In this document: piece by piece, positions 641 to 5,601 of the stretch
Layout of the letters: the number at the start of each line of letters is the position of its first letter
Position numbering within the stretch: position 1 is the stretch's first letter
Source of the DNA: an uncultured Flavobacteriaceae bacterium
Lineage (GTDB): Bacteria > Bacteroidota > Bacteroidia > Flavobacteriales > Flavobacteriaceae
Length of the DNA stretch: 36,179 nucleotides
Reading direction: 5' to 3'
Assembly: GCA_937936275.1 (NCBI GenBank)
Contig: CALHCJ010000010.1
Span: forward strand, 1-36,179
The notes under the pieces: model-generated
Database searches by the model: none
What the model was told of the DNA's origin: nothing
What the model saw: only the letters and a program-made list of their open reading frames with translations
Position numbers and translations under genes: made by a program

Positions 641-810
641 TATATATAGACGCTCTCGCGGAATGAAAAATATATACGTATTAAATGATCATTTTAGACT
701 TCATCTAAAGCAATAATAATCGCGATTGATTTTAAAGCTTTTAGCACTAAGGTAGAAATACCGATTTTTACTAACTTTAAACCCTGTTCATCCAATTGCG
801 AATAGAATTT

Positions 811-2151
811 ATGATACAAACTTCAAAAAACATCGCCATCATCGGTTCTGGCCTAGTAGGTTCACTTTTAGCTATCTACTTAAGAAAATTAGGTCATAAG
901 ATTACAGTTTTTGATCGTAGACCTGATATTCGAAATATTGAGTTTTCTGGTCGTTCCATTAACTTAGCGATGAGTAATAGAGGCTGGAAATCACTGCGAG
1001 CGGTTGATATTGAAAGTGATGTTAAAAAGATCGCAATTCCTTTAGATAAACGTGCTATGCATGTTATTGGTCAACCTGAATATTATCAAAAGTATGGAAA
1101 AGACGGTGAAGCGATATGGTCAATTTCACGTGGTGTGCTAAATCGAAAAATGATTGATTTAGCTGAATGTGCTGGTGTGAATTTCAAATTTGAGGAAAAA
1201 GTATGGGATGTTGATTTGCCTGAAGCTCAACTATACACGGGAGAAACTGAGAAAGGGGAGTGGAAGGAATATCAATATGATCTTATTTTTGGTTGTGATG
1301 GCGCTTTTTCACGGGTACGGCATAAAATGCAAAGACGTAGTCGTTTTGATTATTCACAAGATTTTATTGATGTTGGTTACAAAGAACTAACAATTCCAGC
1401 CAATGAAGATGGTACGCATAAGCTTGATAAAAATTCATTTCACATTTGGCCAAGAGGTAAATTTATGCTGATTGCCATGCCCAATTTAGATGGTAGCTTT
1501 ACTTGTACACTCTTTATGCCATTTGAAGGGGAAGTATCTTTTGAGAATATAAAAACCAAAGAACAGGCCAAAACATTCTTTTTATCCTATTTTCCAAATG
1601 TCATGCAGGTTATGGATGACTTGTTAGAAGATTTCTTTAAAAATCCTACCAGTGCCATGGTTACCATGAAATGTTACCCATGGACGTATTGGGATAAAGT
1701 CGCTCTAGTTGGTGATTCAGCACATGCCGTGGTACCGTTTTATGGTCAGGGGATGAATGCAGGCTTCGAAGATATTTATGTTTTGAATCAAATCATCGCA
1801 AAACATGGTGATGATTGGGAGGCAATCTTTCAAGAATACCAAAAAGAACGCAAACCAAATGCTGACGCCATAGCCGAATTAAGTTATCGCAATTTTATAG
1901 AGATGAGTAGCAAAACCGCTGATCCGAAATTCTTATTGCAGAAGAAAATAGAGAAATCTTTCGCTAAGAAGCATCCTGAAAAATGGATGCCAGTATATTC
2001 TAGGGTGACTTTTTCTGATAGACCATATTCAGAAGCTTTAGCCATAGGTGATGAACAAGAAAAAATCATGCAGAAAGTAATGAAAATACCAGATATTGAA
2101 TCCATTTGGGAGCATGAGGTGGTAGAAAAGAAAATACTCAGCTTACTTTAG
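811..2151 (+). CDS. kmo: Kynurenine 3-monooxygenase (FAD-dependent)
   Basis: GSGLVGSLLAIYLRKLGHKITVFDRRPD Rossmann motif, FSGRSINLAMSNRGW, ALVGDSAHAVVPFYGQGMNAGFED. ATG at 811 preferred over the TTG at 796. Confidence 0.92.
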   Translation: MIQTSKNIAIIGSGLVGSLLAIYLRKLGHKITVFDRRPDIRNIEFSGRSINLAMSNRGWKSLRAVDIESDVKKIAIPLDKRAMHVIGQPEYYQKYGKDGEAIWSISRGVLNRKMIDLAECAGVNFKFEEKVWDVDLPEAQLYTGETEKGEWKEYQYDLIFGCDGAFSRVRHKMQRRSRFDYSQDFIDVGYKELTIPANEDGTHKLDKNSFHIWPRGKFMLIAMPNLDGSFTCTLFMPFEGEVSFENIKTKEQAKTFFLSYFPNVMQVMDDLLEDFFKNPTSAMVTMKCYPWTYWDKVALVGDSAHAVVPFYGQGMNAGFEDIYVLNQIIAKHGDDWEAIFQEYQKERKPNADAIAELSYRNFIEMSSKTADPKFLLQKKIEKSFAKKHPEKWMPVYSRVTFSDRPYSEALAIGDEQEKIMQKVMKIPDIESIWEHEVVEKKILSLL

Positions 2152-2582
2152 TCGATACCTTTTGAATCGGTAATTTCCGTTTTTCGCATGGGCATACTAT
2201 CAATTAGCGAAAATATTTCTTTTGGATTTACGATAAAAGCTTCCTTCAGTTTTAATCCTCCATCTTTACCAATAAGAACAAGGCCATTAAAGTCAGATAG
2301 GTCATAAGTAGAAATAATGGTGTCTGCACTTAAATCCATTATTTGTTTCCTATCGTTATAAACTAGATCATCTGTAATGATTAAGAGGAGTACTTCTCTT
2401 TCTTCGAGTTGTGTGCGATCTGCGTTCAATCTTTTCAATTGGGCTTGCAACCAATCTGATTCGAAAGTATTTGATTTTAAGAGGATGATTCGGTTTTTCC
2501 ACTGATAAACATCCAAATCTTGTGCTTTAATTTTAGAGCTCATTAAAGCAAATACAACAATTAAAAATAAAACTGAGCGCAT
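2148..2582 (-). CDS. DUF4174-like secreted protein
   Basis: Signal peptide, then LDVYQWKNRIILLKSN...LLLIITDD...VLIGKDGGLKLK, resembling the DUF4174 family. Confidence 0.75.
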   Translation of the reverse strand: MRSVLFLIVVFALMSSKIKAQDLDVYQWKNRIILLKSNTFESDWLQAQLKRLNADRTQLEEREVLLLIITDDLVYNDRKQIMDLSADTIISTYDLSDFNGLVLIGKDGGLKLKEAFIVNPKEIFSLIDSMPMRKTEITDSKGID

Positions 2583-2617: not shown

Positions 2618-2643
2618 AGCCATCCCTTTTGTGAGAGATGGCT
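2618..2643 (-). terminator. Intrinsic terminator downstream of the DUF164-like gene
   Basis: On the minus strand AGCCATCTC-TCACAAAA-GGGATGGCT followed by TTTTTTGATT. Confidence 0.7.
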
Positions 2644-2668: not shown

Positions 2669-3448
2669 CTATAGTTTTTTAAACATTTTTTCCATTTTTA
2701 CCTGTTCTTCTTCTGCTAACACAGGGTCAACCAAAATTCGACCACTATGCTCATCAGTAATGATTTTTTTTCGTGAAGCGATCTCCACTTGAACTTGTGG
2801 AGGAATAGTGAAAAACGAACCACCAGAAGCACCTCTTTCGATGGGCACTACAGCTAAACCATTCTTTACATTTGTTCTAATACGATTATAGGCTTTCACT
2901 AATCGCTCTTCAATATCTTTCTGAAATTTGGCAGATTTATCAAGTAACGCTTTTTCTTCCTTTTCAGTCTCTGCTAAAATAGCATTCAATTCGCTCTTTT
3001 TATGCTTCAAGTGCGATTCACGTTCTGCTAATTTTTCTTTCGTTTCAGATACAATGACCTTCTTCTGTTCGATTTGAGCTTTAAATTCTTTAATGTTTTT
3101 TTCAGCCAATTGAATTTCAAGCTCTTGAAATTCTAACTCCTTGCTTATAGAGTTAAATTCACGACTGTTTCTAACATTTTTTTGCTGCTCTGTATATTTC
3201 TTAATTAAAGCCTTTGATTCATCGATCAAGTTTTTCTTGGCAGTAATCTCAAAATTTACAGTTTCAACATCGGTCTTCAATTTATCCATTCTTGTTTTCA
3301 GACCCAACACTTCATCTTCTAGATCTTCAACTTCTAATGGAAGTTCACCACGAACACTTCTGATTTCATCAACCCTAGAGTCAATTAATTGCAAATCATA
3401 TAGTGCTCTTAACTTATCTTCTACAGTAGCTTCTGCTTTTTTTGCCAT
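2669..3448 (-). CDS. DUF164/HP0958-like coiled-coil protein with degenerate C-terminal zinc ribbon
   Basis: Long Glu/Lys-rich coiled coil and C-terminal ribbon region ERGASGGSFFTIPPQVQVEIASRKKIITDEHSGRILVD; next to a Nif3-like gene, as in HP0958/HP0959. Confidence 0.85.
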   Translation of the reverse strand: MAKKAEATVEDKLRALYDLQLIDSRVDEIRSVRGELPLEVEDLEDEVLGLKTRMDKLKTDVETVNFEITAKKNLIDESKALIKKYTEQQKNVRNSREFNSISKELEFQELEIQLAEKNIKEFKAQIEQKKVIVSETKEKLAERESHLKHKKSELNAILAETEKEEKALLDKSAKFQKDIEERLVKAYNRIRTNVKNGLAVVPIERGASGGSFFTIPPQVQVEIASRKKIITDEHSGRILVDPVLAEEEQVKMEKMFKKL

Positions 3449-3450
3449 AT

Positions 3451-4545
3451 CTATAAATACTTGATTGGATTGGTTTTACTTTCCGCTAAACGGATTGCAA
3501 AATTAGGAATTTTTTTCGTAAGATAATCAACTAAAAGGTTTTTTGTAAATTGCTCAGTTTCAAAGTGTCCGATATCTGCGATCACCATTTGGTCTTCTGC
3601 CTCATAAAACTGGTGATACTTTACATCTGCCGTAATAAAAACATCAGCTCCAGCGGCTTTTGCGGCTGCTATTGCGAAAGCACCGCTACCTCCTAATACG
3701 GCAACTTTTTGTACTGGTTTTTCAATCAATTTTGAGTGTTTTATTCCTTCAGCATGCATGGTTTGCTTTACATGATTTAGAAATGTTAGTTCATCTACAG
3801 ATTTTTTCAATGATCCTATCATGCCCATGCCGATATGTTGATTGCTATTTTCGAGTGAATATACTTCGTAGGCAACCTCTTCGTAAGGATGATTTTTAAA
3901 AAGAGCATTCAAAACTTTTTGTTCTTGTGATTTTTGATAAGTAATATGAATTTGAGTTTCATCTTCAAAGTGAATTTCACCTATTTCACCTATTGAGGGA
4001 TTGGCAGAAACACCTGCCCGAAAACTTCCCGTACCCTCATTGATAAAACTACAATGGTCATAGTTGCCTATGCTTCCGGCTCCTGCTTCAAATAAAGCAG
4101 CTTTTACTTTGTCAACATCTTTTTTAGGAACATAAGTCGTTAGTTTTTTAATGGTTTTTTTTTGTGGAATTAGTATTTTCGGATTTTCTATTCCTAAAAC
4201 TTCACAGATTTTTGCATTAACTCCATGCTGTGAATTATCTAAAGCAGTATGCATGCTATAGATTGCTATATTGTTTTGAATCGCTTTGAGAACCACACGT
4301 TCCACATAGGTTTTTCCTGTTATTTTTTTAAGTCCCTTAAATATAATTGGATGAAAGCTAACCACAAGATTACATTTTGTTATAATCGCTTCATCAATGA
4401 CGTTTTCTAATGTATCTAAAGTGACTAAAATACCCGTTACTTCGTTATTTTGATCTCCGACTAAAAGTCCAACATTATCAAAATCTTCCGCATATGATAA
4501 CGGAGCTAGTTCTTCGAGTATTTGGGTAACTTCTTTTACAATCAT
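3451..4545 (-). CDS. Nif3-like dinuclear metal center hexameric protein
   Basis: EDFDNVGLLVGDQ, VSFHPIIFKGLKKITG, IYSMHTALDNSQHGVN, DVFITADVKYHQFYEAEDQMVIADIGHFETEQF. Confidence 0.92.
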   Translation of the reverse strand: MIVKEVTQILEELAPLSYAEDFDNVGLLVGDQNNEVTGILVTLDTLENVIDEAIITKCNLVVSFHPIIFKGLKKITGKTYVERVVLKAIQNNIAIYSMHTALDNSQHGVNAKICEVLGIENPKILIPQKKTIKKLTTYVPKKDVDKVKAALFEAGAGSIGNYDHCSFINEGTGSFRAGVSANPSIGEIGEIHFEDETQIHITYQKSQEQKVLNALFKNHPYEEVAYEVYSLENSNQHIGMGMIGSLKKSVDELTFLNHVKQTMHAEGIKHSKLIEKPVQKVAVLGGSGAFAIAAAKAAGADVFITADVKYHQFYEAEDQMVIADIGHFETEQFTKNLLVDYLTKKIPNFAIRLAESKTNPIKYL

Positions 4546-4593
4546 TCCGTAATTTTAAGATGCTCAAAGATAAAATATTATACTTTCGCTCTA

Positions 4594-5601
4594 ATGTGGT
4601 TGATTAGAAAAATACTTTTCCCTTTTTCATTGATTTATGGAATGATCGTATACGTACGAAATCGATTTTATGATTGGGGAATATTTTCGGCTAAATCTTA
4701 TAGCGTACCCATTATTTGCATCGGAAACTTAAGTGTTGGTGGTACAGGTAAAACGCCAATGGTTGAATTATTTATAGAGCTATTGCAAAGAGATTATAAA
4801 GTTGCCGTTTTAAGCAGGGGGTATAAAAGAAAATCAAAGGGATACTTTTTAGCAGATGCTGCCAGTTCTCCAGAACAACTCGGTGATGAACCTTTTCAAA
4901 TTCATTCAAAGTTTACTGATATTTCAGTAGCTGTTGATGCTAATAGGCAAAACGGAGTGGTAAAACTTCAGGAAGCAGTACAACCCGATGTTATTATCTT
5001 AGATGATGCCTTTCAACATCGAAAGATTACTCCTGGTTTTTCTGTTTTGTTGACTGCTTTCGACAGTATATACACACGTGATTGGTATTTGCCGACAGGA
5101 AACCTAAGAGATAGTAAGCGAGAGGCGCGACGGGCAGATGTTTTAGTGGTAACAAAATGTCCGATAGATAGTTCAGAAGCGGAGCGCTTAAATATTAGAC
5201 GTACGCTGGCACCAGAAGAGGGACAAATAACTGTATTCAGTTATTTGGCATACGATAGTCAACTTGGAGGTACAGGAACACTAAAAACTATTGCTGATTT
5301 AGAACATAAGGAAGTGACCCTGGTAACTGGTATCGCAAACCCCAAACCGTTGTTAAATTTTTTAACCAGCCTAGGGGTTTCATTTGAACACTATTCTTTC
5401 AACGATCATCATTTTTTTTCTAAAGATGAAATAGAAAGGTTAGCGTCTAAAACCAATATTTTGACTACTGAAAAGGATTTTGTGAGACTTAAAGATGCCT
5501 TAAATAACATCAATTACATTGCGGTGAAACACGAATTTTTCGGGGATGGCTTGGAAAGCTTACAAAGTGGTTTAAAAGAATTTATGAGCCAGTATTTCTA
5601 A
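4594..5601 (+). CDS. lpxK: Tetraacyldisaccharide 4'-kinase
   Basis: VPIICIGNLSVGGTGKTPMVE, VAVLSRGYKRKSKGY, LGDEPFQIHSK, ILDDAFQHRKI. ATG at 4594 preferred over the ORF-track start. Confidence 0.93.
   Translation: MWLIRKILFPFSLIYGMIVYVRNRFYDWGIFSAKSYSVPIICIGNLSVGGTGKTPMVELFIELLQRDYKVAVLSRGYKRKSKGYFLADAASSPEQLGDEPFQIHSKFTDISVAVDANRQNGVVKLQEAVQPDVIILDDAFQHRKITPGFSVLLTAFDSIYTRDWYLPTGNLRDSKREARRADVLVVTKCPIDSSEAERLNIRRTLAPEEGQITVFSYLAYDSQLGGTGTLKTIADLEHKEVTLVTGIANPKPLLNFLTSLGVSFEHYSFNDHHFFSKDEIERLASKTNILTTEKDFVRLKDALNNINYIAVKHEFFGDGLESLQSGLKEFMSQYF

Follow-up and report, generated by a model that had tools for sequence, protein, structure and literature searches.

A cysteine-less DUF164 partner of Nif3 from an uncultured Flavobacteriaceae bacterium: one further example of a published lineage trait

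Introduction

The nearest solved relative, in sequence and in fold, of the DUF164 (COG1579) protein described here is CT398/CdsZ from Chlamydia (4ilo; NF047363), which differs from it in carrying a C4 ribbon. MSMEG_4306 from M. smegmatis (5y05, 5y06) displays the same architecture, and its two CXXC motifs bind zinc (PMC5947703). HP0958/FlgZ from H. pylori (3na7) likewise combines a coiled-coil hairpin with a C-terminal ribbon and lies adjacent to a Nif3 gene (hp0959), but it is about 18% identical and carries the four cysteines, on which its protection of RpoN depends. The single exchanges C202S and C223S abolish the function of HP0958 (PMC3372290), and Cys loss is therefore not neutral in every member of the family. 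A comparative study from 2021 placed COG1579 first in frequency among the operon partners of DUF34/NIF3 (PMC8469502). For flavobacterial DUF164 proteins, Pereira et al. 2011 (PMC3372290) described an SXXS-X20-DXXS pattern substituting for the two CXXC motifs as well as synteny with Nif3 in Bacteroidetes, and both these authors and Pfam still count sequences without cysteines as DUF164 family. The loss of the four cysteines in Flavobacteriaceae DUF164 has thus been known since 2011, and a literature search for further reports of flavobacterial Cys loss returned only this study.

We herein analyse the DUF164 gene within a stretch of 36,179 nucleotides from an uncultured Flavobacteriaceae bacterium (assembly GCA_937936275.1, contig CALHCJ010000010.1), referred to as the window. 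Motif, spacing and lineage of this gene are identical to those of the flavobacterial proteins of Pereira et al., with no difference found, and it is one further example of the published lineage trait.

Results

The window had previously been annotated in a sequence-only reading, which proposed a DUF164/HP0958-like gene. This assignment was borne out by the open reading frame (Table 1), by PF02591 (C4-type zinc ribbon) matches of 36.3 and 33.3 bits, both above the curated cut-off of 29.1 and the latter covering residues 208–239, and by profile matches to proteins of known structure. A PDB search with the sequence alone retrieved two chains, CT398 and HP0958, aligning over coil and ribbon, and a profile built from 44 relatives matched them with E 5e-18 and E 5e-8, respectively. 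The profile-profile match with C4 relatives extends along the full length at 62% identity, and C4 relatives with up to 62% identity occur in family f75 (L204, G469). The score of 57.8 bits against the CdsZ equivalog NF047363 lies below its cut-off of 275. Of the features by which membership of the family is judged, the profile match above cut-off, the N-terminal coiled-coil hairpin and the adjacent Nif3 gene, a frequent but not universal neighbour, are present and the two CXXC motifs are absent, replaced by S, S, D and S; not a single cysteine occurs among the 259 residues. Judged from these features, we place the protein within the sequence family as one of its Cys-less members and do not class it with the zinc-binding ribbons. 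A PF02591 search of the whole 3.38-Mb genome gave the window gene as its sole match, and with one DUF164 copy there is consequently no C4 backup paralogue.

Table 1. Positions in the window of the DUF164 gene, its replaced ligand residues and the neighbouring features.
Feature	Position	Strand	Basis
DUF164/COG1579 protein, 259 aa, coiled-coil hairpin and C-terminal ribbon-type domain	2669..3448	(-)	ORF and PF02591
Ribbon region, residues 198-241 (LAVVPIERGASGGSFFTIPPQ...TDEHSGRILVD)	2726..2857	(-)	conservation in 44 Cys-less sequences
S208, Cys-1 position, first CXXC	2825..2827	(-)	156-row alignment
S211, Cys-2 position	2816..2818	(-)	alignment; invariant in 44 Cys-less sequences
D232, Cys-3 position	2753..2755	(-)	alignment; invariant in 44 Cys-less sequences
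S235, Cys-4 position	2744..2746	(-)	alignment; invariant in 44 Cys-less sequences
Nif3/DUF34 with central PII-like domain, 364 aa	3451..4545	(-)	PF01784 E 4.7e-76; best PDB relative 2gx8 E 1.4e-72
F64 of Nif3, at the first position of the metal-site His pair (SFHP)	4354..4356	(-)	alignments
Terminator-like hairpin and T run just past the DUF164 stop	2618..2643	(-)	consensus scan, 10 pairs
DUF4174 protein, likely signal peptide	2148-2582	(-)	
FAD monooxygenase gene (kynurenine 3-monooxygenase-like)	796-2151		
lpxK	4522-5601	(+)	

Protein searches recovered the gene from 296 of the 297 genomes covered for the phylum and from 281 of the 295 covered for the class, and representatives were sampled from about 110 family-level groups. 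The resulting ligand alignment comprised 156 rows, i.e. the window and 155 relatives, of which 40 are Cys-depleted and 116 carry C4. It confirmed, together with the presence of the previously quoted C-terminus in the translation, that all four ribbon cysteines are lost, with the window displaying the spacing S208-x2-S211-x20-D232-x2-S235. Every sequence sampled from the window's own family, whose named relatives include Maribacter, Zobellia, Arenibacter, Cellulophaga and Muriicola, reads S or A, S, D, S, and the earlier guess of a lineage-wide trait held, the loss being common to every Flavobacteriaceae sequence examined. Since the four cysteines are equally absent from L002-L034 and from L122-L201, the 80 named Flavobacteriaceae loci, sequencing error or a pseudogene could be ruled out, the same change occurring in more than 100 genomes. 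Groups f54 and f7 show S, S, D, S and the sister family f2 shows P, S, D, S, while f75, the tree neighbour of these groups and of the window's family, retains C4. Elsewhere in the phylum, other states were observed: L042 and L043 read ACDS, their same-family relatives L041 and L088 being still C4, and L071-L077 and L081-L083 read AMDS or CMDS. Further groups show an AFCT/AYCT state, in which two residues are deleted from the first knuckle, or an AFSD state.

Three further observations concern single loci or groups. L116, placed among C4 relatives, reads C-DS (IDENSGRIL) with a shortened first knuckle and apparently represents a separate loss. A large group outside the class (L056-L070) has lost two residues from the first knuckle and reads C-E-H-T-G-R-I in the second, keeping a single Cys at the third position, except that L058 reads S..D there, the D..S order swapped. 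L271, from a 500 kb genome (G318), retains an intact C4 ribbon despite strong genome reduction; its reading frame is split into two overlapping frames at a run reading N, which may reflect a frameshift or an assembly gap.

Among 44 Cys-less sequences, the ribbon (residues 198–241) is the best-conserved part of the protein, with a mean pairwise identity of 88% compared to 70% for the coil and 57% for the tail. Residue 208 is Ser in 41 of the 44, while S211, D232 and S235 are invariant in all of them. For 25 of these sequences, the ribbon had a mean pN of 0.044 compared to 0.146 for the coil, synonymous sites being near saturation, and position 235 is encoded by AGY as well as TCN codons with the residue always Ser. 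The higher identity of the ribbon compared to the coil points to constraint and not decay; these comparisons show, at the level of sequence, strong purifying selection on the Cys-less ribbon in its present form.

The homolog alignment and the mapping of Cys loss on a tree, which had been suggested as a check, were carried out on the 156 rows. The tree was built from the coiled-coil columns with the ribbon excluded; it is a quick tree, 74 of its 153 inner branches being weakly supported. On this tree the label 'Cys lost' changes six times, a count for which the groups were defined once the sequences had been seen and in which gain and loss are pooled, and at least three of these changes are forced by well-supported branches. 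A single clade of all Cys losers was rejected (p-AU 8.7e-6), as was a single clade of all D..S rows (p-AU 5.8e-4), and with them a single origin. The direction from C4 to loss is adopted because C4 is the form in the solved Chlamydia, Helicobacter and Mycobacterium structures. The comparison with the 155 relatives suggests that similar Cys swaps arose several times within the phylum. Across the Cys-losing groups the second knuckle repeatedly becomes D-E-x-S-G-(R/K), a noteworthy recurrence given that two base changes separate Cys from Asp.

An AlphaFold model of the full protein shows two long helices (residues 9–90 and 95–178) with block pLDDT mostly between 74 and 93, and Foldseek placed 4ilo, 3na7, 5y06 and 5y05, all family structures, as its top four matches. 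In the same model the ribbon reaches a pLDDT of about 35–46, the input alignment, drawn from the window and its related loci, being shallow. When residues 178–245 were modelled in isolation, again from a shallow alignment, a strand-helix-strand arrangement with a pLDDT of 62 was obtained, for which Foldseek returned no significant match and no zinc ribbon.

The gene immediately upstream, proposed earlier to be Nif3-like, was confirmed as such by its PF01784 match (Table 1). Nif3 ends 2 nt before DUF164 starts, and this gap and the terminator-like hairpin after the DUF164 stop make the pair look like one transcript; from this arrangement the two genes are probably co-transcribed with the transcript ending at the hairpin, which is indicative only, since three terminator-like sites were found in the region against 1.9 expected. 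A promoter scan gave no more hits than expected by chance, and a repeat search of the region yielded nothing relevant. Over the 156 loci, Nif3 occurs in the flank of 143, comprising 36 of the 40 loci with Cys depletion and 107 of the 116 with C4, and wherever found it lies upstream on the same strand (36/36 and 107/107). Cys loss has therefore left the Nif3 association intact, in agreement with the retained Nif3 link of the sequence-only reading, adjacency being independent of Cys state.

Discussion

Taking these results together, we consider it reasonably likely, at a probability of roughly two thirds, that the window holds an ordinary Bacteroidota DUF164 Nif3-partner gene in the standard Cys-less form of the Flavobacteriaceae, with a ribbon-type tip whose folding does not need zinc. 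The backbone NH groups in the turn of a zinc knuckle donate hydrogen bonds to the first Cys of each CxxC. We propose a model in which the long coiled-coil hairpin would bear a small ribbon-type tip folding without metal, D232 would replace the knuckle Cys as backbone hydrogen-bond acceptor in an Asx turn that S235 closes (DEHSGR), and S208 and S211 would do likewise in the first knuckle. Knuckle shape and the binding surface of the tip (ERGA, PPQ and the GRILVD strand) would thereby be kept, and the tip would presumably serve the adaptor- or chaperone-like role of the family with Nif3 or other partners. We think that D232 and S235 take this hydrogen-bonding role, judging from known zinc-knuckle chemistry and from the recurrence of D..S. 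The low pLDDT of the ribbon, the weak tree branches and the loss of function of C202S and C223S in H. pylori count against the zinc-free reading as a whole.

Extended to the phylum, the zinc knuckle of Bacteroidota DUF164 may have been lost at least three and probably about six times, with the second knuckle repeatedly turning into a metal-free D-E-x-S-G-(R/K) Asx-turn mimic, a proposal to which we give even odds. If true, the two base changes needed for each Cys to Asp exchange would point to selection for a zinc-free knuckle that preserves the adaptor surface towards Nif3 or another partner. A literature search found no published remark on the recurrent D-E-x-S-G-(R/K), and the recurrent D..S replacement represents a modest extension of the known trait. 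Such recurrence would provide natural, evolved cysteine-free zinc knuckles in an operon that is conserved widely although its function is obscure. It opens the testable question of whether DUF164 zinc is only structural or is needed when the protein acts with Nif3 and RpoN; orthologues of the C4 and Cys-less types share their gene context and can be exchanged for one another. Zinc-ribbon ribosomal proteins offer a parallel, in which the C4 knuckle has repeatedly been lost while the protein was retained, as for the window DUF164. Paralogues of the two kinds, C4 and Cys-less, are often found together there under zinc control, whereas the window genome has one DUF164 copy.

It is conceivable, though we regard it as unlikely, that the C-terminal domain still binds metal, either by means of D232, E233, H234 and the serines or with the help of a partner protein such as Nif3. 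Such a site would fit the invariance of D232 and E233 across the Cys-less sequences, and Nif3, itself a metal-site protein, has been suggested to act as a metal chaperone or insertase (PMC8469502). However, H234 is variable (Tyr in L032) and is found in C4 relatives as well, where it lies outside the four ligands, Ser is a poor zinc ligand, and the first-knuckle residues differ among Cys-less groups (S, P, A).

Similarly doubtful is a joint change of role, in which zinc loss in the ribbon and an exchange in the Nif3 metal site would be linked steps of one Flavobacteriaceae shift. The metal site of DUF34/NIF3 comprises a His pair, HxxxD and HxxxE. The paired His motif reads HHP in the solved bacterial Nif3 relatives 2gx8 and SA1388 and SFHP in the window, while five further ligand positions that were checked (H65, H99, D103, H327, E331) are retained. 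Phe (SFHP or CFHP) is found throughout the window's family and its sister family f2 as sampled, and all these members also carry the Cys change, as expected for linked steps. Against this, the Cys-depleted loci L035, L206, L202, L203, L042-L043 and L071-L077 keep HH, FH occurs in six C4 rows, and an independent-pairs test on three supported pairs gave no signal. A strict link between Cys loss and HH to FH was rejected, each state occurring without the other. Phe at residue 64 of Nif3 resembles the Tyr reported for the first-His position in eukaryotes (PMC8469502).

Decay of the ribbon to a functionless remnant, for which the disappearance of all four metal ligands might be taken as a sign, is very improbable given that the ribbon exceeds the coil in conservation by both identity and pN and that the replaced residues are invariant. 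Mere resemblance to a C4 ribbon, named in the sequence-only reading as the outcome that would contradict it, draws on the low AlphaFold confidence in this region and is hardly credible, as the ribbon's own Pfam match, which exceeds the cut-off, the CT398 match (E 5e-18), the full-length profile match to C4 relatives and the C4 relatives in f75 instead support homology, so that by sequence the C-terminus is clearly homologous to the C4 ribbon.

With regard to function, a FlgZ-like role of the window protein together with RpoN is possible by analogy. RpoN (Sigma54_DBD) was detected in the window's genome and in 80 of 80 sampled genomes irrespective of Cys state, and its presence therefore does not discriminate for such a role. 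A tie between Cys loss and RpoN loss was rejected, with RpoN present in all 80 genomes.

Concerning the wider neighbourhood, the DUF4174 gene lies downstream of the nif3-DUF164 operon and separates it from the convergent FAD monooxygenase gene. At the opposite end, lpxK lies divergently next to Nif3; an lpxK-like ORF lies within the flanks at 75 of the 80 named Flavobacteriaceae loci, and in H. pylori another lipid A-core gene, kdtA, flanks flgZ (PMC3372290).
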